Positions 3,907-64,000 of a stretch of DNA of 64,000 nucleotides are shown here, piece after piece. Both the position numbers and the translations under genes were made by a program. How positions within the stretch are numbered: position 1 is the first letter of the stretch; every line of letters begins with the position of its first letter. This DNA is from Planctomycetota bacterium (GTDB taxonomy: Bacteria > Planctomycetota > Phycisphaerae > Phycisphaerales > Phycisphaeraceae): assembly GCA_021413865.1 (NCBI GenBank), contig JAIOPN010000062.1, positions 124,001 to 188,000 on the forward strand, given 5' to 3'. The notes under the pieces are model-generated. The model was given only the letters and a program-made list of their open reading frames with translations. It was not told the origin of the DNA and ran no database searches.

Positions 3907-5880
3907 ATGGCCGAGTTTCAATACCTGTTCACGCCTCTGAAGATCGGTCACGTCACGGTGAAGAACCGCATCTCCTGCAGCGCCCACGCCGATGCGCTGG
4001 CGTTCGATGGCATGCCCGCCGACCGCGAGCGACGCTACTACGAGGAAAAGGCCCGCGGCGGCGTCGGCTTCATGATGTGCTTCGGCTCGGCGAGCGTGCA
4101 CCCCACCAGCACCGCCCGCGACTGGAACGGCGTCGAGCTCTTCGACGACCGCGTCATCCCCTTCCTCAAGAAATTCAGCGACACCATGCACGGCTACAAG
4201 GTTCCTGTCTGCGCCCAGATCACCCACCGCGGCCGGCGCGGGCGGAGCATCGACTTGTGGAACCGGCAGTACGGCCCGAGCGACACACGCGAGCCCAACC
4301 ACCGCGAAAACCCCCATCCGCTCGAGCCCCACATGATCGACGAGCTGGTCAACTCCTTCGCCGCCGCGGCGGGACGGCTCAAGGAGGGCGGGTTCGACGG
4401 CTGCGAGGTCATGGCCAGCCACTGCCACCTCATCGACCAGTTCTGGACGCTCAACGTGAACAAGCGGAGCGACGCCTACGGGGCGCAGAGCATCGAATCG
4501 CGCCTGAAGTTCGGCGTGCGCATCATCGAGGCTGTGCGTGAAAAGGTCGGGCGTGACTTCATCGTCGGCATCCGCGTGACGGGCGACGACTTCACCGAAC
4601 GCGGGCTGGACAACGCGCAGATGCAGGAGATCTGCGGGAAACTGAACGACCTGAAGATGCTCGACTATTTCAACGTGATCGGCGGGACGGCCGAGACGTT
4701 CGTCGGGGAGGCGGCGGCGGTACCGAACATGTCGTTCAAGCTCGGGTGCTACACCTACTTGGCGGCGAGCATCCGCAAGGTGGTGGACGTGCCGGTGATC
4801 GCGTTCGGTCGGATCGTGGACCCGGTGCAGGCGGACAAGATTCTGGCCAACGGCGAGGCGGACATGGTGATCATGAACCGCGCCCTGATCGCCGACCCGC
4901 ACCTGCCCAACAAGGCGCAGGCGGGGAAGCTCGACGACATCCGCCAGTGCATGGGCTACAACGAGGGATGCATCGACCGCATCTACACGGGGCGCGGCGT
5001 GACGTGCGTGCAGAACCCGGTGGTCGGCCGCGAGGAGAAGTGGGCGGAGCTGACGGTCGCGGGCGGAAAAAAGAAGATCGTCGTGGTGGGCGGCGGGCCG
5101 GCGGGTTTGGAAGCGGCGCGGGTCTGCGCCACGCGCGGGCATAAGGTCGTGCTGTTCGAGAAATCGGGCGAACTCGGCGGGCAGACGCTCATCGCCAAGC
5201 GTGCCCCGGGACGGCAGGATTACGATGGCGCGACGCGCTGGTCGGGGCTGCAGTGCCAGAAATTGGGCGTGGACATCCGGCTGAACACCGGGGCGACGCC
5301 CGAGGCGATCCTCGCCGAGTCGCCGGACCACGTGTTCATCGCCACCGGCGCGACGGCCCGGCCGCACGGGCTGGAGGGGGCGGAGAAGCACGTCGTCGTC
5401 TCCGCGTGGGACGTTTTGATGGGCGGGTACGACGGCCTAGACAAGCTCGGCAAGACCGTGCTGGTGATCGACGAGGAGTACGGCCACCAGGGACCGACCA
5501 CCGCCGAGTACCTGCTCGACCGCGGGCGCGAGGTGGACCTGGTCACGAGCCAGGAGGTGATCGGGAACTTCCTGGGGGCGACGACGCGGCCGCCGCTCCT
5601 CACGCGGCTGTTCAAGAAAGGCGCCCAGTTGTTTAACCACCTCAAGGCGGAGTCGCTGCGCGACGGGCACTGCCTTGCGCGGAACGAGTGGTCGAGCGAG
5701 TTGCAGCAGGTCGGGCCTTACGACGGGTTCGTGTACGCCTACGGCGGCATCCGCGTGGACACGCTGACCGAACCGTTGAAGGCGCGCGGCGTGTCGGTGC
5801 AGGCGGTGGGCGACGCGTTCAGCCCGCGTTCGCTGCAGCACGCGATTCTCGAGGGGCATCAGTACGCGCGAGAAATCTAA
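3907..5880 (+). CDS. Two-domain flavin/FeS oxidoreductase of the TMADH / dimethylglycine-stachydrine demethylase group
   Basis: 657 residues. The N-terminal half is an old-yellow-enzyme barrel (FMN): LFTPLKIGHVTVKNRI at the start, QITHRGRRGRS, GFDGCEVMASHCHLIDQF and NGEADMVIMNRALIADP. A cysteine motif follows (CMGYNEGC, then C twelve residues on), then a Rossmann domain starting KIVVVGGGPAGLEAAR for FAD/NAD(P). Enoate reductases and trimethylamine dehydrogenase share this plan; the DRIY after the cluster cysteines resembles the DgcA/StcD branch that demethylates N-methyl compounds. TMADH-type enzymes pass electrons to ETF, which fits the etf genes just upstream. The second cluster cysteine position holds Tyr. 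Substrate cannot be read from the sequence; an ordinary 2,4-dienoyl-CoA reductase role is the main alternative. Confidence 0.82.
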   Translation: MAEFQYLFTPLKIGHVTVKNRISCSAHADALAFDGMPADRERRYYEEKARGGVGFMMCFGSASVHPTSTARDWNGVELFDDRVIPFLKKFSDTMHGYKVPVCAQITHRGRRGRSIDLWNRQYGPSDTREPNHRENPHPLEPHMIDELVNSFAAAAGRLKEGGFDGCEVMASHCHLIDQFWTLNVNKRSDAYGAQSIESRLKFGVRIIEAVREKVGRDFIVGIRVTGDDFTERGLDNAQMQEICGKLNDLKMLDYFNVIGGTAETFVGEAAAVPNMSFKLGCYTYLAASIRKVVDVPVIAFGRIVDPVQADKILANGEADMVIMNRALIADPHLPNKAQAGKLDDIRQCMGYNEGCIDRIYTGRGVTCVQNPVVGREEKWAELTVAGGKKKIVVVGGGPAGLEAARVCATRGHKVVLFEKSGELGGQTLIAKRAPGRQDYDGATRWSGLQCQKLGVDIRLNTGATPEAILAESPDHVFIATGATARPHGLEGAEKHVVVSAWDVLMGGYDGLDKLGKTVLVIDEEYGHQGPTTAEYLLDRGREVDLVTSQEVIGNFLGATTRPPLLTRLFKKGAQLFNHLKAESLRDGHCLARNEWSSELQQVGPYDGFVYAYGGIRVDTLTEPLKARGVSVQAVGDAFSPRSLQHAILEGHQYAREI

Positions 5881-5925
5881 AAGCCGATTTTTGTTACAAC
5901 AACCAACCACTCTGGAAATCCGCTC

Positions 5926-7116
5926 ATGAAAATTACCGCTATCCGCGCCACGCCGGTCAACATCCCGCTCGACGCGCCGTTCTTCTGGTCGGTCGGGCTG
6001 TATCCAGGCACGACAAAGGTGGTCATCGAGGTCGAGACCGATCAGGGATTGATCGGTTTAGGCGAATCGCCCTCGCCCGGGTGCGCGGCCGTCATCAACA
6101 GCGTGCTGGCGCCGGCGCTGATCGGCATGAACGCACTGGACATGGAATCCTGCGAGCGCAAGTGCGTGCAGGAGACGCGTGTGGTGCACAACACCGACGA
6201 CGCCTCGATCCTGAAGAGTTGGGGCGGCGTGGAGATGGCGCTGTGGGACCTGCGCGGCAAGGCGTGGAACCAGCCGCTCTACATGCTGCTGGGCGGGCCA
6301 GCGCGGAAGGAGATCAAGTTCACGGAGTACTTCTGCTTCCGGCCGAAGGTGGGCAGGGCGGGCGGGGAGATGACGCCCAGGGCGATCGCGGACTACTGCC
6401 GAAAGATGCGGGAGAAGCACGGGGCGACCTATTTCGAGGGCAAGCTCTGCATGGGCGACCCGCGGCAGGAGATCGAGGCGGTAAAGCTGATCCGCAGGGC
6501 GATCGGCGACGACGCGATGCTGCGGCTGGACGCGAACATGGGCTGGTCGGTGCCGACGGCCAAGCGCATCCTGAACGAGATCGAGCAATACAACATCCGT
6601 AATTACGAGGACCCGGTGGCGACGTTCGAGGAGATGGCGAAGCTGCGGCAGCACAGCGCGGTGCCCTTCTCGACGCACACGCCGGACCTGCGGCAGGCGG
6701 TGCGATTAGGTGTGCCGGATTACTTCGTGCTGAACCTCACGGTGCTGGGCGGCATCCGCCGAACGAGCGAGTTCGTGGCGGCGTGCAAGGCGTTCGACGT
6801 GGGGTTCTGGTGCTACAGCGGCGAGACGGGGATCGGCAACGCGGCGTACCTGCACTTCGTCGCCGCGCACCAGTGGATCACCGAGCCGAGCCAGTCGATC
6901 TTCCGCTGGCAGTGCGATGACGTGATCCGTGACGGGAATTACAAGCCCAAGAACAACGTGCTCCGCGTCCTCGAGGGGCCGGGGTTGGGCGTGACGCTGG
7001 ACCCCAAGGGGTTCAGGCGCTGCGCCGACCGTTACAAGAAGGACGGCCCGCTCTACCAGTACCGCGACCCCTACGCCCCGACGCGCGGCGAGTTGCGCCG
7101 GCTGCCGCTGGACTAA
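5926..7116 (+). CDS. Enolase-superfamily (mandelate racemase/muconate lactonizing) protein with atypical active site
   Basis: 396 residues. An N-terminal capping domain (residues 1-130) is followed by a barrel with metal-ligand strands LRLDANMGW and NYEDPV. It is closest in layout to glucarate-dehydratase-like members: the lysine strand reads YFEGKLCMG where that group has FKLK, so the first Lys of KxK is Glu. The third ligand strand reads PFSTHTP where the group has ATN, and the general-base His region reads CYSGETGIGN. These alignments are by eye. The protein may catalyse a different reaction from characterised members, or be a lactonase, epimerase or dehydratase with shifted residues. It sits between the demethylase-like gene and a dioxygenase, 45 bases after the former. 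Confidence 0.85.
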   Translation: MKITAIRATPVNIPLDAPFFWSVGLYPGTTKVVIEVETDQGLIGLGESPSPGCAAVINSVLAPALIGMNALDMESCERKCVQETRVVHNTDDASILKSWGGVEMALWDLRGKAWNQPLYMLLGGPARKEIKFTEYFCFRPKVGRAGGEMTPRAIADYCRKMREKHGATYFEGKLCMGDPRQEIEAVKLIRRAIGDDAMLRLDANMGWSVPTAKRILNEIEQYNIRNYEDPVATFEEMAKLRQHSAVPFSTHTPDLRQAVRLGVPDYFVLNLTVLGGIRRTSEFVAACKAFDVGFWCYSGETGIGNAAYLHFVAAHQWITEPSQSIFRWQCDDVIRDGNYKPKNNVLRVLEGPGLGVTLDPKGFRRCADRYKKDGPLYQYRDPYAPTRGELRRLPLD

Positions 7117-50894: not shown

Positions 50895-50968
50895 GCCGAC
50901 ATAGCTCAACTGGTTAGAGCGAGGGATTCATAAGCCCTAGGTTCCCGGTTCGAGTCCGGGTGTCGGCA
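50895..50968 (+). tRNA. tRNA with anticodon CAT (Met or lysidine-modified Ile), attachment site for the mobile element
   Basis: A 74-base cloverleaf: acceptor GCCGACA/TGTCGGC (all seven pairs), D stem GCTC/GAGC, anticodon loop TTCATAA, T stem CCCGG/CCGGG with loop TTCGAGT, discriminator A. CCA is not encoded. The pair below the anticodon loop (31:39) is A-G, a mismatch. Anticodon CAT alone cannot separate initiator Met, elongator Met and Ile(k2CAU); the A-T at 27:43 and lack of the 3 G-C pairs argue against an initiator. The 3' 55 bases are also the end of the integrase gene on the other strand. Confidence 0.9.
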
Positions 50969-52455
50969 TTTTGCCCATCAGCGCCGATCAGCGCCAAACC
51001 CCGCTGATTCTCGGTGTTTTCGTCACTTTCGTCCCACTCTTGCCCGACCCCGTCAAGCGCCGCTTGAGGCCGCTCGACGCCCCGTTTTGCACCTGCGCGC
51101 TCCTGTTTTTGCTCCTTGCCAAATGGCATTGAATCGCCATGGGTCCCCGTGGCGGCCGCCGATCGTGGAAAATTCGCAATCGAGAGGTCGGGCAGCTTCG
51201 CCAGCGCCGCCGACTCGTCGTTCTTGAACGCGTGGGTGTAGCGGTCCATCGTGAGCGTGATGGTGGAGTGGCGCATGATCCGCTGGATCAGCTTGGGGTG
51301 AACGTTGGCGGCGGCCAGCCAGGTGCCCGTCGTGTGCCGCAGGGAATAAAAATCGAGACGCCGGCCGGCCGCGTCCGAGTCGGCCAGGAAGCTCGATTGT
51401 TCCCGACTCTCCCGCTCCTGGGACATCACGGCTTGGCCGATCCAGTCAGCCCGTGCCGCCGCCGCATCCGCCCGGATCATGTCGGCCAAGTCATCGGCAC
51501 GCGGCATGGCGAACGCCGGCGCCGCCGGCGTCTTATTCGCCAAGTGCTGCTTGAGAAGGGCCGCGGTATCGGACCGCAGAGGGAGAGTGTCTTTGCGCCG
51601 GTTCTTGGCGTGGGCCGCTTCCACCGTCACCGTCGGAGCCTCATCGCCCTCTGTGGATAGATGGAAACTTGCCTTGGTCAGCTTCCGGATTTCCTTGTTG
51701 GGCCGCAGGGCGGTCTCGACCGCGAAGCGGTAGAGCGTGGCGCGGTCGGCACCACCGACGCCGTAACGAGTCACCGGGCCGGACCGCTTGCCCTCCTTGT
51801 CGATCGGCCCCTGTTCGGTTGCGTCCAGCAGCCAGACCATTTCATCGACGGTCAGCGCCCGCCGCTCCTTACGATCGGGCCGGGCGTTCATACCCGAGAG
51901 GTGAGCCAGTGGGTCGGCCGTGATGATCCGCTCCCGGACCAGCCATCGCGTGAACTGCTTCACTGCCCTCAGGTAGTAGTTGGAAGTCGCCTTGCCTACG
52001 CCCCGTCCTTTGTCAGGTTTCGTATCACGCAGTTCGGCAAGGAATCGCTGCACGCCTGCCCCGGTCAGGTCGGCGATCGCTTGGACCTTGCAGCCCTTCA
52101 GAACGACTTGCAGCCGGGCATCGGTCTTTTCGACGTACTCGGGTGTGTTGCCCTTGTCGGCCAGGGCCTGCTTGAACGCCTCGGCCAACTCGAACGGCTT
52201 GCGATGCCGGTCGTTCAACAACCCGACCTTGACCAACTGTTCCCGGAGGTATTCAGGGACGGTTTCGATCCAGGTCGCCAGCTCGCCCTCGGGCAGTTGG
52301 CGGGAACTCCGCAGGCCAATCAGGCGGTCGATGTAGCGCTGGATTTCACGGCCGGCGGTCTTGTCGCCCGTGCCGGTGTTGATCCGCCATCGCTTGCCCG
52401 CGTCGTCGTAGAACGCCACCCGAAGACTGCCGGTTTCTTTGTAGAGCGTGGACAT
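50914..52455 (-). CDS. Tyrosine integrase of a tRNA-targeted mobile element
   Basis: 513 residues. N-terminal SAM-like DNA-binding domain (about 85-190) and catalytic domain with Arg near 248 (ALRPNKEIRKL), HxxR in YSLRHTTG (about 370), RHS and Tyr near 406 (DRYTHAF). The last 17 residues (DTRTRTGNLGLMNPSL) are encoded by the opposite strand of the tRNA 3' half, the usual result when an integrase gene ends at its own attachment site. Excisionase-like and XRE genes lie just upstream, so it is the integrase of the element that follows. Confidence 0.93.
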   Translation of the reverse strand: MSTLYKETGSLRVAFYDDAGKRWRINTGTGDKTAGREIQRYIDRLIGLRSSRQLPEGELATWIETVPEYLREQLVKVGLLNDRHRKPFELAEAFKQALADKGNTPEYVEKTDARLQVVLKGCKVQAIADLTGAGVQRFLAELRDTKPDKGRGVGKATSNYYLRAVKQFTRWLVRERIITADPLAHLSGMNARPDRKERRALTVDEMVWLLDATEQGPIDKEGKRSGPVTRYGVGGADRATLYRFAVETALRPNKEIRKLTKASFHLSTEGDEAPTVTVEAAHAKNRRKDTLPLRSDTAALLKQHLANKTPAAPAFAMPRADDLADMIRADAAAARADWIGQAVMSQERESREQSSFLADSDAAGRRLDFYSLRHTTGTWLAAANVHPKLIQRIMRHSTITLTMDRYTHAFKNDESAALAKLPDLSIANFPRSAAATGTHGDSMPFGKEQKQERAGAKRGVERPQAALDGVGQEWDESDENTENQRGLALIGADGQNADTRTRTGNLGLMNPSL

Positions 52456-52459
52456 GGGA

Positions 52460-52675
52460 TCACCTCTCGGTTTTCTTGACTGTCTTAGGCCGAAGCACCA
52501 ATTCCAGGCCCAGCACGTCGGCCAGCCGTTCCGCGGCTTCGATGCTCAGGCCCCGCTCCCGGCTCAGCAGCCGGGACAGCATGCTCTGCGCCACCTTGGC
52601 CTCCTTGGCCAGCCGGTACTGGGTTTTCTCGCTAGCCTTGACCGCCTGCCTCAGGGATTGAACGATTTCGCTCAT
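52460..52675 (-). CDS. XRE-family helix-turn-helix regulator
   Basis: 71 residues. The helix-turn-helix reads TQYRLAKEAKVAQSMLSRLL, then IEAAERLADVLGLEL. Four bases upstream of the integrase gene. The ATG at 52675 lies six bases after a TATAAT box, so its mRNA is probably leaderless. It may control the integrase and excision functions. Confidence 0.82.
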   Translation of the reverse strand: MSEIVQSLRQAVKASEKTQYRLAKEAKVAQSMLSRLLSRERGLSIEAAERLADVLGLELVLRPKTVKKTER

Positions 52676-52681
52676 GGGCAC

Positions 52682-52690
52682 ATTATACCA
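52682..52690 (-). promoter_or_regulatory. Extended -10 promoter placing the start at the XRE ATG
   Basis: On the minus strand tggtataat is an extended -10 box. Six bases separate TATAAT from the ATG, so transcription should start at or within a base or two of the ATG. No -35 match is clear. The upstream stretch is otherwise without a ribosome binding site. Confidence 0.5.
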
Positions 52691-52743
52691 GTGCTTGCCC
52701 ATTGGCATAGCCTTGGACGCAATATTTTTTCGTGGAGGGCGAT

Positions 52744-52986
52744 TCATGGGCGGGCGATCCGCCTGCGGGCTTCCATCCAGGCCTCGATGGTCGTCCACCG
52801 CCACCGGATGATCTTGCCCAGGGACAGGTCGGGCGGCGGCAGCTTGCCGACGCCTCTCCAAGTCTGGAACGTGCGACGACCGATTGCCAGGTACGTGGCG
52901 AACTCTTCCGGTGACACCAACCGTTCACTCCTCGCGGCCGGCGGTGTGTCCTTCGGCTGGGTGCGTGCCATTGGATTCTCGGGCAT
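52744..52986 (-). CDS. Excisionase-like helix-turn-helix protein
   Basis: 80 residues. The pattern SPEEFATYLAIGRRTFQTWR followed by GKLPPPDLSLGKIIRWRWTT is that of MerR/AlpA-type excisionases: a winged helix that selects a recombination direction. ggag lies eight bases before the ATG at 52986. Its position beside integrase and XRE genes supports the call. Confidence 0.72.
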   Translation of the reverse strand: MPENPMARTQPKDTPPAARSERLVSPEEFATYLAIGRRTFQTWRGVGKLPPPDLSLGKIIRWRWTTIEAWMEARRRIARP

Positions 52987-53078
52987 GGTCAGGTCTCCGA
53001 GTGCAAAGAGGAAATCAAATCCTTCAAAGGGCGCGACCGGTATTTCTCCGGCCATGCCCGTGGATAGATGGTTCAGCG

Positions 53079-53375
53079 TTAATCCCGCTCCATCTCCTTG
53101 GCCGGTGCGTCGCGTCCTTCGCGTGACGCCTCGACCTGTTTCATCCGGTCCGCCAGGATCGAACCCCGCTCCTCTTCCAGTGCGGGGATTTCCGAGCGGC
53201 GGTCCTCCGCCACCTCGCCGGGTGTCTTGGTGCCATAGAGGCCGTATTCAGGCACCGTCTGCGCGACGTTGGATTCGGGGTAAAGCGCCGAGCGAAGCTC
53301 GCGCAGGCCTTGCCGGAACATCGCCGAGACATGGCCGGCACCGATCTTGGGGTTGGGATCATTCACGGGTCGCAT
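53079..53375 (-). CDS. Hypothetical protein of the mobile element
   Basis: 98 residues, not recognised. Charged and helical: MRPVNDPNPKIGAGHVSAMF at the start, GLRELRSALYPESNVAQTVP, then a Glu/Arg-rich C-terminal helix. aaggag lies seven bases before the ATG at 53375, so it is a real gene. It is followed 20 bases on by the membrane protein gene upstream of it in transcription order. Confidence 0.62.
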   Translation of the reverse strand: MRPVNDPNPKIGAGHVSAMFRQGLRELRSALYPESNVAQTVPEYGLYGTKTPGEVAEDRRSEIPALEEERGSILADRMKQVEASREGRDAPAKEMERD

Positions 53376-53395
53376 GGGTAGCTCCTTGTTCAATT

Positions 53396-53983
53396 TCACC
53401 AATCGTCATTCAGCTCGCGGAAACGCTCCGCGAGCCGGTGTTGCTCGATCACGGCATCGTTCATGTCCATCGCGCGAGCACGCTCGTATCGCTCCGTCAG
53501 GACCGCCACGAGAAAGAGCGCCGCGGCGGAGAGTATGAGGTACATCCCGAGCGGTCGATTCAGTTGCCAGACCAGATACCCGACCGCGAGCACCAGCAGC
53601 GGTTCGGTCTTCCGTTTGACTTGGGATTCGGTGAACTTGGGGTTTACGCGCGCCAGTCGCGGCCAGCCGTTGTAGAAGCTGTGCGAACGGAGTTCCCCAC
53701 GCCGCCGCCGGCGGAAGCCGTCGATGCGGGCGCGGACGCACATCACCAGGTAGGCGAGGAGGAACCACAACATCGGCCCCGGATCGTCCTCGGGGAAAAA
53801 CACACCGAAGAACAAGATGATCGGCATGGCAACGGCCGCCTGGAGCCCGATGTAACGCTCGCCGAACCCGCGCCGCAGAAAGACCTCCACCGAGACCGCG
53901 AGCGATCGTGCGAAGAACACGATGCAGCTCATCCCGCTTCTCCACTGATCCATCACGCCCGTGCTGCCCTGCTGCTCTTCCAT
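53396..53983 (-). CDS. Integral membrane protein of the mobile element
   Basis: 195 residues with about four membrane segments in pairs (AVAMPIILFFGVFF, MLWFLLAYLVMCV, LLVLAVGYLVWQL, YLILSAAALFLVAVL), separated by an Arg-rich cytoplasmic loop (RRRRRGELR). aaggag eight bases before the ATG. Directly downstream of the VirD4/TraG-like ATPase gene and of the same operon. The family is not recognised; it may supply the membrane anchor that this ATPase lacks. Confidence 0.68.
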   Translation of the reverse strand: MEEQQGSTGVMDQWRSGMSCIVFFARSLAVSVEVFLRRGFGERYIGLQAAVAMPIILFFGVFFPEDDPGPMLWFLLAYLVMCVRARIDGFRRRRRGELRSHSFYNGWPRLARVNPKFTESQVKRKTEPLLVLAVGYLVWQLNRPLGMYLILSAAALFLVAVLTERYERARAMDMNDAVIEQHRLAERFRELNDDW

Positions 53984-54077
53984 GACCCGTCTCCTTGCTT
54001 GGGGGTTGCGGCGGGCGCGCACCGTCTCCGCCGACGGTGGTGACCGCCTTCTTGAAATCCACGCTGAATGTCCGCCT

Positions 54078-55580
54078 CTAGTCGGATTGCCGGAATGTCA
54101 CGGGCAGCCAGGATCGGCCCGTCTGCCCGAACACCCGGCCGTTCTGGAACACAATCGCATCCACCAATCGATCATTCGCCGGCCCGCCTGTGCGCAGCCG
54201 GTGAAACGCCGAGGGCTGGACTTCGTAGTCCATCTGCTCACTGACGCCCGCGTTGACGTTGCGTGAGTGGCTCAGCCCCATTGCGGAATCCAGCCAATCC
54301 TCCGATTGATGGCCGTGGTTGGCATTCATGAAGAACTGGCGCTTCTTGCCGATGATCGACGCCGCCCACTCGTTGGTCACCGGGTCGGCGTTGGCGTGGA
54401 ACACCTTGCAGGCCAGGTTGCCCAGCAGCGAATCCGCCTTGGCGCGGCTTCCCTCGCCTCCCATGGCTTCGAGCACGTTGGAAAGGTTCTGGGTCAGATA
54501 CACCGTCGCCACGCGTGACGACCGGCAGGTCGATTGAAAGAGAAAATCGCGGTCGTAGAAAAAGAACTGCGCCTCATCGGCGTAGAGGAACACCGGCCGT
54601 GGGTTTTGCTTCACATCGCGCCGTTCGACAGCCAGTTGCCAGCAGTACTTCATTAGCACGTTAGCGATCACGCCAACCTCGCCGAATTCCTTGACCGGCA
54701 GCGCCACCACGATGACCTTGCCCTGTTCGCTGTCGTTGAGCGAGAAGTTCGTCCTCCCGCAGAAGAGTTGCCGCAGGACGCCGCGATTCATCACATCGAT
54801 GCACGACGTGAACGACGAGACGATCACCGACCGCGTCTTGTCGGAGAGGCCCGGATATTCAAGCAGGATGTAATCCGCCACCAGCTTGAAGTCCTCGCGG
54901 CGTATCGACGACTTGGCCGCCGCGTCGGCGTCAACAAGCAGCTTGAAGCAGTAGGAGTTCCGCTTCCAGCCCTCCGAAGCGGCCTGATCGAGCGAGGTCG
55001 CCGACGAAATAATCGCCCGGTACAGATCGGGAATCGAGACGTGACCCGTCGCCAGGATCAGGAGATCGCAGAAGTTCCGCACCAATTGCCGGGCGGCCTT
55101 GCGCCAGTAGCTCTCGTCCTCCCGGCCACCGCCGTTTGAGCCCGTGCGGTCGGCAATCTCCAACATGGTGGTGAACAGATTGACGAGGTTTTCCGTGTGA
55201 CCCGCGCCGGCGCCCTTGCGGTTGAGTTCAAAATCGAGCGGGTTGAAGCACCACGGCCCCTCGGGCGAGAACAGGATCAGATCGTTCTCCCGCCCCGTGG
55301 CGCGGCAGTGTTCGATCCAGAGTTGCACTTCATCTTGCTTGGCGGTGAGCACCAAGCCGCCAAACCCCGCCTCCAGAAACGAGCGGGCGCAGCGCGTGCC
55401 CGATGTACTTGTCTTGCCGCTGCCACTTGCGCCGGTGACTAAAAGCCCCTCGACCGCATGACCGATTGTCCACGCATCGGTCTCCGACCACTGGAGCAGC
55501 GGCGTGGAGAGCGACCACGGATCGACCGCATGGCTGCCCTTTACCTTTGCCTCCTGTTTCAGCCAGGGTATCCACGGCAT
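54078..55580 (-). CDS. VirD4/TraG-type coupling ATPase of the mobile element
   Basis: 500 residues. Walker A GASGSGKTST at 50-59, Walker B VFLYADEAQFFF near 330, and QSTCRSSRVATVYLTQN as the motif III region, all typical of type IV coupling proteins and their TraD/TrwB relatives. Such ATPases feed DNA-relaxase complexes to conjugative channels. It lacks the N-terminal membrane segments of standard VirD4, so it would be soluble or held by the membrane protein encoded downstream. aaaggag seven bases before the ATG. No relaxase or channel gene is nearby. Confidence 0.85.
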   Translation of the reverse strand: MPWIPWLKQEAKVKGSHAVDPWSLSTPLLQWSETDAWTIGHAVEGLLVTGASGSGKTSTSGTRCARSFLEAGFGGLVLTAKQDEVQLWIEHCRATGRENDLILFSPEGPWCFNPLDFELNRKGAGAGHTENLVNLFTTMLEIADRTGSNGGGREDESYWRKAARQLVRNFCDLLILATGHVSIPDLYRAIISSATSLDQAASEGWKRNSYCFKLLVDADAAAKSSIRREDFKLVADYILLEYPGLSDKTRSVIVSSFTSCIDVMNRGVLRQLFCGRTNFSLNDSEQGKVIVVALPVKEFGEVGVIANVLMKYCWQLAVERRDVKQNPRPVFLYADEAQFFFYDRDFLFQSTCRSSRVATVYLTQNLSNVLEAMGGEGSRAKADSLLGNLACKVFHANADPVTNEWAASIIGKKRQFFMNANHGHQSEDWLDSAMGLSHSRNVNAGVSEQMDYEVQPSAFHRLRTGGPANDRLVDAIVFQNGRVFGQTGRSWLPVTFRQSD

Positions 55581-55592
55581 AAGTTGCTCCTT

Positions 55593-56708
55593 TTAGGCTT
55601 CCCGGTCGTCCTTCTGCCGTGTCGCGTCGTCTCTCAATGCAAGGAGCCGTGATACAGAATTGAGGACCTCCACCGACTCTGCGGTAATGACGTCATTGGC
55701 GTGCCACCGCTGATGATTGCCACCTGGATTTTGGGACTGCATGGCGTTCCACTGCGACCATGGGAAGCCTGCTATTTTTGATGCCCCTTCTATCGCTGCG
55801 AGTAGCACGGCATCTGCCCCAACACCCCCTATAGGCGTGATCGTGATTCCCATGGATGCCTCGGGGATCGGTGTCCAGGGTTCATCCGGCGTGTCGCGCC
55901 CATTCACGCCTATACCCGCCGGGAGAGATTTCAGCGGAGTCCCACAGACTTCGATTAACCTGCGCTCCGCAAGGGCCAGTTCGCTAAAAAGAGCTCCCGT
56001 TGCCTCCGAGAGCGCCACCGCGTGGGCGATACCGACGATTCTCCGCCCACCACCGCCCTCAGGAACCGTGGTTGCGTCCAGGGTTTTATAGAAACGATCG
56101 AACGCCGCCACGAGGGATTCAGGGCTCCAAGCGGCCGCGTTGGGTTTTTCCTTGGACAATGTGACAGTGATCTGTGTCGTCGTTTCACTCTCGGTCGTCA
56201 CACCATTTTCTGTCTCCGTTACGGGATCGGCTATCGCCACAGGGATCTCGGCGGGCGGCGGTACGGGCCAAACCCGACCAGGGGCGGGCGTCGCCTTATA
56301 GATCCGGTCGAAAGCGAACACGCGCCACTGCGGGTCTTGATCACCTTTCTTTGTAAAGGCCGCCAGCAACTGACCGCTGCTCGTGAGCCTGGCGCGAACA
56401 AAGCGATATATAAACGGCTTGCTTGTGCTCGCCATCACCGCGGGACCGGTTTCCACCCAGTCACCAAACACCTGCATGTAGTCGACCTGCACCTCGTTAT
56501 CTGTGTTGGTGAACTCCATCCGCAGGACGACTTCAACGGCGCCGATCTTGATCAGGTGACGAAGAGCCGTCTCTTCTGCACTGGTGAGTTCACGATCCGT
56601 TGCAGCTGAAAATCTCGGACTCAGGCTCCGCAGCAGGTCAAACCACGCGGCCACCATCGGGGCCAAGTCTTCAAGGGGGAGATCCCCGATCGGTGGCATT
56701 TCGGACAT
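55593..56708 (-). CDS. Hypothetical protein of the mobile element
   Basis: 371 residues, not recognised. N-terminal helical region (ATDRELTSAEETALRHLIKI), a central beta part with VQVDYMQVFGDWVETG, a Pro/Thr-rich linker, and a C-terminal region ending in NSVSRLLALRDDATRQK. It ends 12 bases before the coupling ATPase gene and would be cotranscribed. Lower GC and uneven codon choice than the chromosomal neighbours suggest transfer; this is by eye only. Confidence 0.6.
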   Translation of the reverse strand: MSEMPPIGDLPLEDLAPMVAAWFDLLRSLSPRFSAATDRELTSAEETALRHLIKIGAVEVVLRMEFTNTDNEVQVDYMQVFGDWVETGPAVMASTSKPFIYRFVRARLTSSGQLLAAFTKKGDQDPQWRVFAFDRIYKATPAPGRVWPVPPPAEIPVAIADPVTETENGVTTESETTTQITVTLSKEKPNAAAWSPESLVAAFDRFYKTLDATTVPEGGGGRRIVGIAHAVALSEATGALFSELALAERRLIEVCGTPLKSLPAGIGVNGRDTPDEPWTPIPEASMGITITPIGGVGADAVLLAAIEGASKIAGFPWSQWNAMQSQNPGGNHQRWHANDVITAESVEVLNSVSRLLALRDDATRQKDDREA

Positions 56709-56782
56709 GATTCACCATGAGTGCGAAAGCCACCCGATCATGATTGCGGACATCGCCGATGTGAAGTCAGACTAGATCAGGC

Positions 56783-57196
56783 TCATGCCACGGTGTACCG
56801 GCCGCCCCGCTCACCTCGCACCTTCACGCGCTTAAGCCTGCCGGCCTTCACCATGCGGCCCAGCGCGCTGTCCGCCTTGCCCGCCCGTCCCTCGCCGGAC
56901 CAGTGCTTGTTCACCCGGGCGGCGTTGGGCTTGCCGTGCTTCTTGACGAAGTCGACCACCGACTGCTCACCGCTCTTTGTGAACGTGCGGCGCTTGCGGC
57001 GGCGGCCGGGCTTGCTCGCGGCCTTCGCCTTGGGGGGACGGCCGCGGCGCGCGGCAACCTTACCGCCGACAACGGTGATGCCGTGCTTCGAGAAAGTGAC
57101 TTCAAGCTCCGCGAGGCGGGTGGTGAGCTCCGTGTATTCCGCACGCAGCTTGCCGATCAGGTGGTCAAGGTGGTCGACGATCTTCATACGGGCCAT
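56783..57196 (-). CDS. Small basic DNA-binding-like protein
   Basis: 137 residues. N-terminal helix-rich half (KIVDHLDHLIGKLRAEYTEL), a Lys/Arg/Pro/Ala-rich middle with RRGRPPKAK (AT-hook-like), then a winged-helix-like end (VDFVKKHGKPNAARVNKHW, GKADSALGRMVKAGRLKRV). Basic overall. aaggag eight bases before the ATG. It would bind DNA, perhaps as a nucleoid-type or element-specific factor. Confidence 0.68.
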   Translation of the reverse strand: MARMKIVDHLDHLIGKLRAEYTELTTRLAELEVTFSKHGITVVGGKVAARRGRPPKAKAASKPGRRRKRRTFTKSGEQSVVDFVKKHGKPNAARVNKHWSGEGRAGKADSALGRMVKAGRLKRVKVRGERGGRYTVA

Positions 57197-57282
57197 GGTG
57201 ACGCTCCTTGCAAAGGTGGACACTACCGAAGGCTTGGACATGTGCCCCCGCTCCAGTGGTGGCGCGAGTGCATCACGGTACT

Positions 57283-57465
57283 TCATATTACAACGCGGTC
57301 ACCGTGACCCACCAACGCCAAGTTGTAACCGTGCTCCGCGTAGGGACCGCCCGGAACCGTGCAGTGGGCCAGCCGGTGCCCCTCGCCCGAGCCGTGCCAG
57401 CGCCACTCTCCGCAGTGCCTGCACCACACGCCCCTCCTCGCTCGGTTGCGATCCAAGCCGACCAT
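57283..57465 (-). CDS. Candidate small zinc-ribbon-like protein
   Basis: 60 residues with a CxxC...H...H..HC pattern: VWCRHCGEWRWHGSGEGH, then RLAHC, which looks like a small metal-binding domain. No ribosome binding site is seen and the start lies just past a terminator, so expression is doubtful; it may be a remnant. The ATG at 57465 is the only candidate after the terminator. Confidence 0.38.
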   Translation of the reverse strand: MVGLDRNRARRGVWCRHCGEWRWHGSGEGHRLAHCTVPGGPYAEHGYNLALVGHGDRVVI

Positions 57466-60495: not shown

Positions 60496-62441
60496 CTACC
60501 CCTGCACCGGCGCCTGCCTGATGAAGGGGAACAGTGTCACCGTGAACGCGGGCGCGCCCGTCGTGACGCGCACCGACGATTGATCCAGCGCGATGGTGAC
60601 TCCGATGTCCGCCGTCGGCGCGCTTGCCTTCGGGTAAGCCTCGATGCTCGTGACGCAGAGGTGGCGCGTCGCCGGCGCGGTGGGCGAGATGCGGAGCAAC
60701 GGCATGGTTCCGTGGACGTCGCCGCCGGTGTGGATGCGCGGCTGGTTCTCGGTGCTCGTCGTCGCCGCGCCGGGCGCGTGGACCCGAATCCGACAAGCGG
60801 CGCTGGCGCCGCTGCCCGCGAACGTATTCGCATCGCGCCGCTCAACCGGGAAGCCCGTGTGGAACAGCAGCGTCGGCGTGACCGGTGCGCTGCTCTCGAC
60901 CGCGTCGATGATGAGCCACGCGTCGGGACGCAGGTATAGGACGTGCCGGCGGAGCTGCCGCAGGCCGAGCTCAACAGGGTACGCGGCGGTCATGTCCGCG
61001 ACGCAGCAGTCCCACGCGGCGTGGTGATCGGCGCGCTCCATGAAGGGGTACACGCGACGCTGGCGATAAGGAAGGTCCTCGAACCACTCGGATTTCTCGC
61101 CGTACTGCCCGATGCCATTGATGAGGACCGTGTTGTGGAACTTCGTGTCCTTATAGACGTATCCGGGATAGGTGAGGACCCATTCGCCGTGCGCGAAGAC
61201 CTGGAGCTCGCCGTTGTTGGGGAACATGTGTCCGCCGGCGAGCGGGTTGTTGTACCGCCGCGCGGCGTGGTGTCCGACATTGGGGCCGCACTTGAACACT
61301 CCCGCGGTCTCGGCGCCGCTCCAGTCGCTACGCATCACGGCCACGCCGTGGTCCTCCATCAGCGCGAAGGGCTCGCGCCCGACGAGCGACACGGGGCGGA
61401 CGTCGGGGTCGTAGAGGAGGAACGAGATCGCACAAATGCCCAGATGCCCGCTGGCAAGGAGTTCATCGGCGAGCCACTGCGCGGTGCCGTCGCCTGCCGA
61501 GCTGGCGATGACGCGGAGCACCGCTTCGATCCCGAACACGTTTCCGTGCGCGTCCCCCTGCATGAAGAAGGCGTCATCGGCCTTCCACGAGGCACGCGGG
61601 AGCGACTGTGCGTGCAGCGCAAGGGCGTGCCGGGCGAGCCAGGGCGTTGTGCTGTAGAGGTCGAGCGCGAAGAGTTCCTCGGCGATGAGGAAGTTGACGG
61701 TGAGGTAGCTCGCGTAGTACCCGCCGTACATGATCCCTTCGGGGGATACGCCGTCCGGCCCGAGCGCCGCGCTCTGGGCCCGCATCTTCTCGCACGCCAT
61801 GTTCGCCAGCGGCGCGACATCGGTGCGCTCACCGTAGAGGCACGCCGCGGCGGCTGTCATGCCGCCCAGGACGACGGCCGAGATGTTCCATGTGTAGCCG
61901 AACGGTTCGCCGGCCTTGTACGTCGCCCACTTGTCGAACACGTGCCGCGTGCGCTCGTAGAGCGTTTCGACGTGCCGGCCGCGTGTCTCGGCGGCGAAGT
62001 CGTGCCAGAGCCAGTCGAGTGCCACCGCGAAGCCCTGCGCCCAGTGCCCGAAGATGAGCGAGTCGCCCCAGTCCTCCTCGGCGGCAAGCCGGTTCATCAA
62101 AAGCTCGATGCGGTCACGGTACTTCGTCTCCTGCGTGAGACGGTGCAGCAGCGCGAGGTGGATGAGATGGCTTCCCAGGCCACGCACGTCGAAGACCGAA
62201 TAAGGCGTGCCCATCAGCTTTTCCGGCAGCGATGCCAACAGCATCGCGTCGCCATCGCGTCGCAGCTGTTCGAACCACCGCTTCCACGGCTCGACGCCCA
62301 ACCGTGCCCGCAGGCGGTCGAACGGGTGACGCACGCACAGCAGGCGCGGGTGGACCCCCAGCAGCTCGCACTCCACCTGCGTCGCGCTCGTGATGATGTC
62401 GGCGCCGGCAATTGCGACACAATCCTGGGAAACGCTCGTCT

Positions 62442-62445
<4 letters not shown>
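60496..62445 (-). CDS. Heparinase II/III-type polysaccharide lyase
   Basis: 649 residues. N-terminal helical toroid part ([40 protein letters not shown]) and a C-terminal beta-sandwich with [18 protein letters not shown] and [18 protein letters not shown], the heparinase II/III-like pattern with catalytic His and Tyr. Such enzymes cut uronic-acid polysaccharides by beta-elimination. No signal peptide is visible, so it may act on imported oligosaccharides. Its ATG overlaps the hsdR-tail stop by four bases. Confidence 0.78.

Positions 62446-64000
<1,555 letters not shown>

Follow-up and report, generated by a model that had tools for sequence, protein, structure and literature searches.

A planctomycete tRNA-Met locus with a membrane-segment-free coupling ATPase is probably the remnant of an integrative and mobilizable element

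Is a locus that holds an integrase and a coupling ATPase, and neither a relaxase nor a transfer channel, a complete small mobile element or what is left of a larger one? The question is raised by the region from 50.9 to ∼56.7 kb in a 64,000-nucleotide stretch of planctomycete DNA (hereafter the window), which is C60:124001-188000 of G000, a metagenome-assembled genome (MAG) of 4.37 Mb in 67 contigs, 95% complete. A preliminary description, made from the sequence alone, listed an integrase gene ending in a tRNA, excisionase-like and XRE genes, an ATPase, a membrane protein and hypothetical genes, and ARAGORN, Pfam, PHROG and hydropathy bear out that list (Table 1). Our conclusion is that the region is likely to be the integrase-proximal remnant of an integrative and mobilizable element (IME) from a widespread, little described family, its distal half lost and its far attachment (att) site separated from it. 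On the simplest reading, the distal half was lost, possibly together with a rearrangement that shifted the far att site. Most likely, the window copy is not transferable alone, and is either inert or mobile solely when all of the missing functions are supplied in trans.

The ATPase and its membrane neighbour

A profile of the ATPase family searched against the PDB has DotL/IcmO as its sole match (6sz9, 3.8e-7), while Foldseek of the AlphaFold model (pLDDT 86.7, with residues 1-17 of low confidence) places Cag-beta (1.2e-11) and TrwB (9.7e-11) both ahead of HerA. Hydropathy finds no N-terminal hydrophobic or membrane segment, aligned relatives begin at roughly the same N-terminal position, and Pfam gives no FtsK_SpoIIIE domain match in the protein. 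Because the TraG-D_C/DotL profile, the Cag-beta/TrwB fold and the lack of an N-terminal membrane segment agree, the ATPase is, as judged from profile and model, a type IV coupling protein without a transmembrane domain (TMD), and is not FtsK-like. It has the TraG/TraD-type fold with the TraM-recognition/AAD region that defines such proteins. The earlier assignment to the VirD4/TraG type, with no membrane segments of its own and a four-pass membrane protein beside it, is thus upheld, and the FtsK-type family that might have displaced it did not appear.

The neighbouring membrane protein, TM208, has a confident, helical AlphaFold model (pLDDT 87), yields no Pfam, NCBIfam or PHROG family match, and has no significant fold match in the PDB. 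In 54 of the 74 loci with enough downstream sequence, a TM208-like gene adjoins the ATPase and shares its strand, and we infer that TM208 may anchor the ATPase, the two acting as a split coupling protein. The third gene of the group, HYP107, lies directly after TM208 in the nearest kin, and it too is without a match in Pfam, NCBIfam or PHROG.

Most relatives carry a relaxase, with no channel found nearby

Relatives of the ATPase were found in 12 of 392 sampled planctomycete genomes (G000 included), on nine plasmids and in 200 GTDB-species loci, these last from a search with a five-sequence alignment; 80 of the 200 GTDB loci were examined, and ∼100 related loci contribute overall. These relatives belong to Planctomycetota, Verrucomicrobia, Bacteroidota, Alphaproteobacteria and others, and are located on mobilizable plasmids or tRNA-integrated elements. 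In the nearest planctomycete kin the trio ATPase-TM208-HYP107 keeps the same order and strand, and after it come an integrase, either tyrosine or serine, and a tRNA gene, with ParB on the upstream side of the ATPase, so that the whole reads integrase-HYP107-TM208-ATPase-ParB ... MOBF relaxase. The ordered trio beside an integrase is present in the window copy as well, where the order tRNA, integrase, HTH_17 gene, HYP107, TM208, ATPase equals that of loci L061, L063 and L090, and in part that of L054 and L130. Homologues of the HTH_17 excisionase-like gene stand downstream of the trio, strong in L054, L061, L090 and L130 and weaker in L063 and L096.

A ParB-like open reading frame (ORF) is found directly upstream of the ATPase in 23 of the 24 HYP107-bearing relatives (two of the 23 overlap the ATPase frame, ORFs having been read to the first start), and is absent in the window. 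Of the 39 loci whose flanks reach 8.5 kb or more on both sides, 29 have a relaxase, MOBF or MOBQ, within ∼10 kb. Seven further loci (L054, L055, L057, L062, L090, L115 and L130) carry MOBF elsewhere on the contig, at ∼12-31 kb from the ATPase, bringing to 36 of 39 the well-flanked loci with a relaxase on the contig; the remaining three are L059, L064 and L111. On contig 5 of G393 the order is serine recombinase, HYP107, TM208, ATPase, ParB, cargo, TrwC relaxase with a helicase domain, ParA and RepA. The cargo of this element, between ParB and relaxase, includes a Roc-COR GTPase with leucine-rich repeats (L212:12498-14990).

Small complete plasmids with the ATPase (11-31 kb) have a relaxase and no type IV secretion system (T4SS); Runella pSP2_3 and Skermanella pSM-4 are small complete plasmids that hold both ATPase and relaxase. 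A search for VirB4-type ATPases in seven plasmid records and ten genomes or records returned nothing above cut-off near these elements; G396 has one above-cut-off match, ∼56 kb from its ATPase. Since the ATPase co-occurs with a relaxase and no T4SS lies nearby, the family is one of mobilizable plasmids and IMEs that bring their own coupling protein. No att repeats of 14 bp or more were found in the stretches examined of G393, G392, G400, L036 and others.

A phage origin was considered and rejected, there being no ATPase relative in 50,697 phage records and one in IMG/VR. Phage terminase, portal and head genes share a contig with MOBF and the ATPase in L130 (G401:C1, from IMG/VR, 117 kb) and in L090 (G400:C1:335-342 kb), and G401 also has phage-type polymerase, primase and helicase genes. 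These genes may belong to a prophage next to the element, or mark a phage-plasmid that carries a mobilization module.

From these relatives we picture an intact member as a plasmid-like element integrated at a tRNA or tmRNA gene, which would carry an integrase (often with an excisionase-like gene), HYP107, TM208, the ATPase, ParB, cargo and a MOBF (TrwC/TraI-like) relaxase, together with ParA and RepA if the best-read example is typical. The integrase and excisionase would free the circle, which the MOBF relaxase would then nick at a putative origin of transfer; the soluble ATPase, docked on TM208, would pass the relaxase-DNA complex to the T4SS of another element, and in the recipient the integrase would re-insert the element at a tRNA gene. 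The scheme draws directly on gene content and order, the fold of the ATPase, its co-occurrence with relaxases, and the small complete plasmids free of T4SS genes.

The window copy has probably lost its distal half

Contig C60 continues for 3.7 kb past the window, giving 12.1 kb of readable sequence beyond the ATPase. Six-frame searches with hidden Markov models (HMMs) of C60, from window base 1 to the end, and of C36, a contig that holds a copy of the att core, found ParB, MOBF, MOBQ, MOBP, ParA, RepA and the MOBF-linked gene H142 to be absent. TrwC (MOBF) has no match anywhere in the 4.37-Mb bin, no VirB4-type ATPase is matched in the genome, and there is no channel gene in the window or onward to the contig end. 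The window copy thus has the integrase and tRNA att site of an IME and, as expected of an IME, no T4SS genes, while the relaxase or mobilization protein found in its relatives is lacking, as is the family's pairing of ParB upstream of the ATPase with MOBF in the same element. The observation in the preliminary description that no relaxase or channel gene is visible therefore extends to the contig end, and the search for MOB families that it proposed came back empty; it had also foreseen that the element might have a relaxase outside the window, and this holds for the relatives but was not found for this copy. Nor is 'compact' supported as a word for the element, given that one end is missing here and that complete relatives exceed it in size and hold relaxase, partition and replication genes.

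Element genes have a G+C content at third codon positions (GC3) of 0.74-0.82, against 0.88-0.95 for most neighbouring host genes. HYP167 probably does not belong to the element, because an 82% identical paralogue lies on the same contig and its codon usage is more host-like; the gene falls within the span of 50895-57196 first given for the element. Further on, the heparinase II/III-like gene has its orthologue (67% identical) in an ordinary chromosomal setting in G417, a member of the same family. Somewhere from 56.7 to 60.5 kb, then, the element comes to an end, with no att site there. Beyond the heparinase gene is an HsdR-type restriction subunit (window 62442-64000 and L008:1-1432), with no HsdM or HsdS before the contig end, which may be an orphan or a remnant.

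Where relatives have ParB, the window has HYP371, whose GC3 of 0.64 is the lowest in the region. Among 392 planctomycetes it has one weak match (3.4e-4) outside its own genome, and it has none in plasmids. That a relaxase is hidden in HYP371 was considered and rejected, as it has no match in Pfam, NCBIfam, PHROG or PADLOC.

The far att site

The genome holds a single tRNA-Met(CAT) of this kind, with one further match to its 3' part. No 15-mer of the att core (ATTCATAAGCCCTAGGTTCCCGGTTCGAGTCCGGGTGTCGGCATTT) is matched elsewhere in the window or in the C60 tail, and no exact copy of the tRNA 3' end occurs in the 16.7 kb from the tRNA to the end of C60. The statement that a second tRNA 3' end was not seen is therefore correct for this contig, although an exact 46-bp copy does exist, at C36:67648-67693, where there is no complete tRNA. 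Because the genome has one such tRNA gene, the C36 copy derives from the same integration site; it may be the far end of this element or that of another user of the site. The two copies cannot bound one simple element, since the first ∼64 kb of C36 are core chromosome (with genes resembling RecG, ProRS, IF-3 and NADH dehydrogenase), and for this reason we rejected a single element interval running from C60 to C36.

A 2.7-kb IS91-like element with a Y2 transposase and a tyrosine recombinase (C36:64008-66684) lies 0.96 kb to the left of the C36 att copy. The same repeat, present in at least three copies, is met at the ends of contigs and breaks them (C65:3759-3909, C55:1-144, C31:1-140 and C1:1-140), making the assembly near the C36 att copy doubtful. 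Neither ParB nor MOBF was found beside these other copies on C65, C55, C31 and C1. One copy seemingly interrupts a thioredoxin-like gene (C65-IS-C31), and another is located in a second decayed element of the same genome (C55:1-6000, L226), which has an excisionase-like HTH_17 gene (2.3e-18), a DnaB-like helicase, a broken integrase at 5107-5994 and a methylase fragment cut by the IS91-like element.

We also compared the original tRNA-Met neighbourhood in 12-13 family relatives, in which the flanks are not conserved. In one family relative, G431 (L197):9412-9864, the same tRNA-Met site is used by an integrase 50% identical to ours, and in another, G436 (L194):11108-11157, an exact 50-bp att copy adjoins a different integrase. 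From these two cases, the tRNA-Met gene is a repeated integration target.

Table 1. Features of the locus and its surroundings, in window coordinates
Feature	Position	Strand	Basis
tRNA-Met (CAT), integration target	50895..50968	+	ARAGORN
att core, attL side, 46 bp	50926..50971	+	exact second copy at C36:67648-67693
Tyrosine integrase, 513 aa, 3' end within the tRNA	50914..52455	-	Pfam PF00589 Phage_integrase 1.2e-10; phrog_1 integrase 5e-30
XRE/HTH_3 regulator, 80 aa, ORF open to 52861	52460..52702	-	PF01381 3.3e-7
HTH_17 excisionase-like protein, 103 aa	52744..53055	-	domain matches and homologues in relatives
HYP107, small soluble protein, third gene of the conserved trio	53079..53402	-	homologues in 32 loci
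TM208, four hydrophobic segments, proposed membrane anchor of the ATPase	53396..54022	-	hydropathy
Predicted TMD-less type IV coupling ATPase (VirD4/TrwB/DotL family), 500 aa	54078..55580	-	PF12696 TraG-D_C 1.9e-7, above cut-off
HYP371, orphan gene	55593..56708	-	sits in the ParB position of relatives
HYP167, probably a host gene outside the element	56783..57286	-	82% identical DNA paralogue at C60:24316; codon usage
Heparinase II/III-like gene of the host chromosome, setting the upper limit of the element within the window	60496..62445	-	67% identical orthologue in G417

Weighing the alternatives

Several observations sit uneasily with a remnant. All of the retained ORFs are intact, and no decay is visible in them. 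In some kin MOBF lies up to ∼31 kb away, against the 12.1 kb that can be read here, so that distance alone leaves room for a relaxase past the contig end. The MAG is 95% complete and in 67 contigs, the junction of element and host is placed only to within 56.7-60.5 kb, and HYP371, in the ParB position and virtually without relatives, could be a functional substitute for ParB.

Some of these observations would suit an element that is intact in the cell and broken or mis-joined in the assembly, its half with ParB, MOBF and RepA lying on a contig that the bin does not include, placed between C60 and the C36 att copy. The far att copy is indeed on another contig, beside a contig-breaking repeat with at least three copies, the MOBF of L064 is likewise on a separate contig, near a contig end, and the reach of ∼31 kb in kin fits too. 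We nevertheless think such a gap unlikely, and weaker than a relict, because C60 passes straight and unbroken into host-like genes, the orthologue of a chromosomal heparinase gene among them; in addition ParB, which usually adjoins the ATPase, is missing, and a TrwC match is lacking from the entire bin.

The preliminary description suggested a satellite that hijacks the machinery of another element, or else an element that moves DNA by a different route. In such a true relaxase-less satellite the ATPase and TM208, possibly with HYP371, would recruit the relaxosome and channel of a helper. The integrase, excisionase-like gene, ATPase, TM208 and HYP107 are all intact, and neither the genome-wide TrwC search nor the HMMs run on C60 and C36 found a relaxase, as a satellite of this kind would have it. 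Yet a relaxase shares the contig with the ATPase in 36 of the 39 well-flanked relatives, a second relaxase-less copy of this architecture is not established, there is no local attR, and the host is without a VirB4-type helper, though a helper could come from outside. We therefore give this explanation little credence, and marginally less to its strictest form, a functional element of integrase, excisionase-like gene, soluble ATPase and membrane anchor only, moved by the relaxase and channel of another. One part of the idea does survive, in that intact relatives look like borrowers of a channel; working without a relaxase is unsupported, and so is a different route for the DNA, given that the ATPase travels with a relaxase. 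Least probable of all is that the trio has ceased to serve transfer and been retained for a different role, in defence or in the processing of chromosomes. In favour are HerA-type fold matches, which are weak, and a PADLOC mad8 match, also weak (6.4e-5); against it, the mad8 score is low, conjugative coupling proteins rank above HerA as the best matches in fold and profile, and the neighbourhood consists of mobilizable-element genes.

The remnant of an IME thus remains our preferred reading, and on that reading the window copy represents no novel kind of element; the interesting part of the finding is the proposed split coupling protein. Coupling proteins determine what DNA is admitted to a conjugation channel, and mobilizable elements known to carry one are few. 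As a set that crosses phyla, the relatives combine a coupling ATPase without membrane segments and a separate membrane protein that has no annotation. Should this pair work as a split coupling protein, it would be a compact natural system for studying the way in which a mobilizable element connects to a foreign T4SS, and would help to account for gene flow in Planctomycetota and Verrucomicrobia, groups whose transfer machinery is poorly known. As for the window copy, its main value is as a decayed element that is open to misreading as a minimal one.

Comparison with known systems

The solved structures closest to the ATPase are DotL/IcmO of Legionella by profile and, by fold, Cag-beta of Helicobacter and TrwB; identity to DotL/IcmO and Cag-beta is low (about 12-16%), and secretion system genes are not nearby. 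Members of the same ATPase family lie beside MOBF, with no T4SS annotated in the stretch read, on plasmid pK2D_1 of Planctomycetes bacterium K2D and plasmid pSP2_3 of Runella sp. SP2. These differ from the window copy in being free plasmids, on which the relaxase is divergent from the ATPase and directly adjoins it. In the open papers searched we found no description of MOBF together with a TMD-less DotL-like ATPase and a separate unannotated membrane partner on mobilizable elements across phyla.

TMD-less coupling proteins that work with small membrane proteins are exemplified by TraJ/TraI of pIP501 (PMC7434980), and in TraG-TraJ pairs the TraJ partner has ∼200 residues and up to five transmembrane helices (PMC7434980). 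The likeness lies in a coupling ATPase with an adjacently encoded membrane protein, TM208 having ∼200 residues and about four transmembrane helices; those pairs, in contrast, are on conjugative plasmids with a full T4SS, and TM208 is without a Pfam, NCBIfam, PHROG or PDB relative. Mobilizable plasmids with a coupling protein are known and have been called rare, CloDF13 (MOBC1) with MobB being an example (PMC7434980, PMC7431656). Like the family described here, CloDF13 is a mobilizable replicon that supplies its own coupling protein, but MobB has its own TMD and belongs to MOBC1 plasmids, whereas here a TMD-less ATPase and a separate membrane partner go with a MOBF, MOBQ or MOBP relaxase.

A further parallel is provided by streptococcal IMEs that encode their own coupling protein, TcpA or VirD4 (PMC5357655, PMC5704250). 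These combine an integrase, a relaxase and their own coupling protein, have no T4SS and pirate the pore of a helper, a description that the relatives fit. The differences are that the relaxase here is MOBF (TrwC with helicase), or MOBQ or MOBP in proteobacterial plasmids, that the ATPase is VirD4/DotL-like and TMD-less rather than an FtsK-like TcpA, and that ParB and, where read, RepA and ParA are carried as well. The window copy fits the streptococcal pattern in its integrase and coupling-protein part only.

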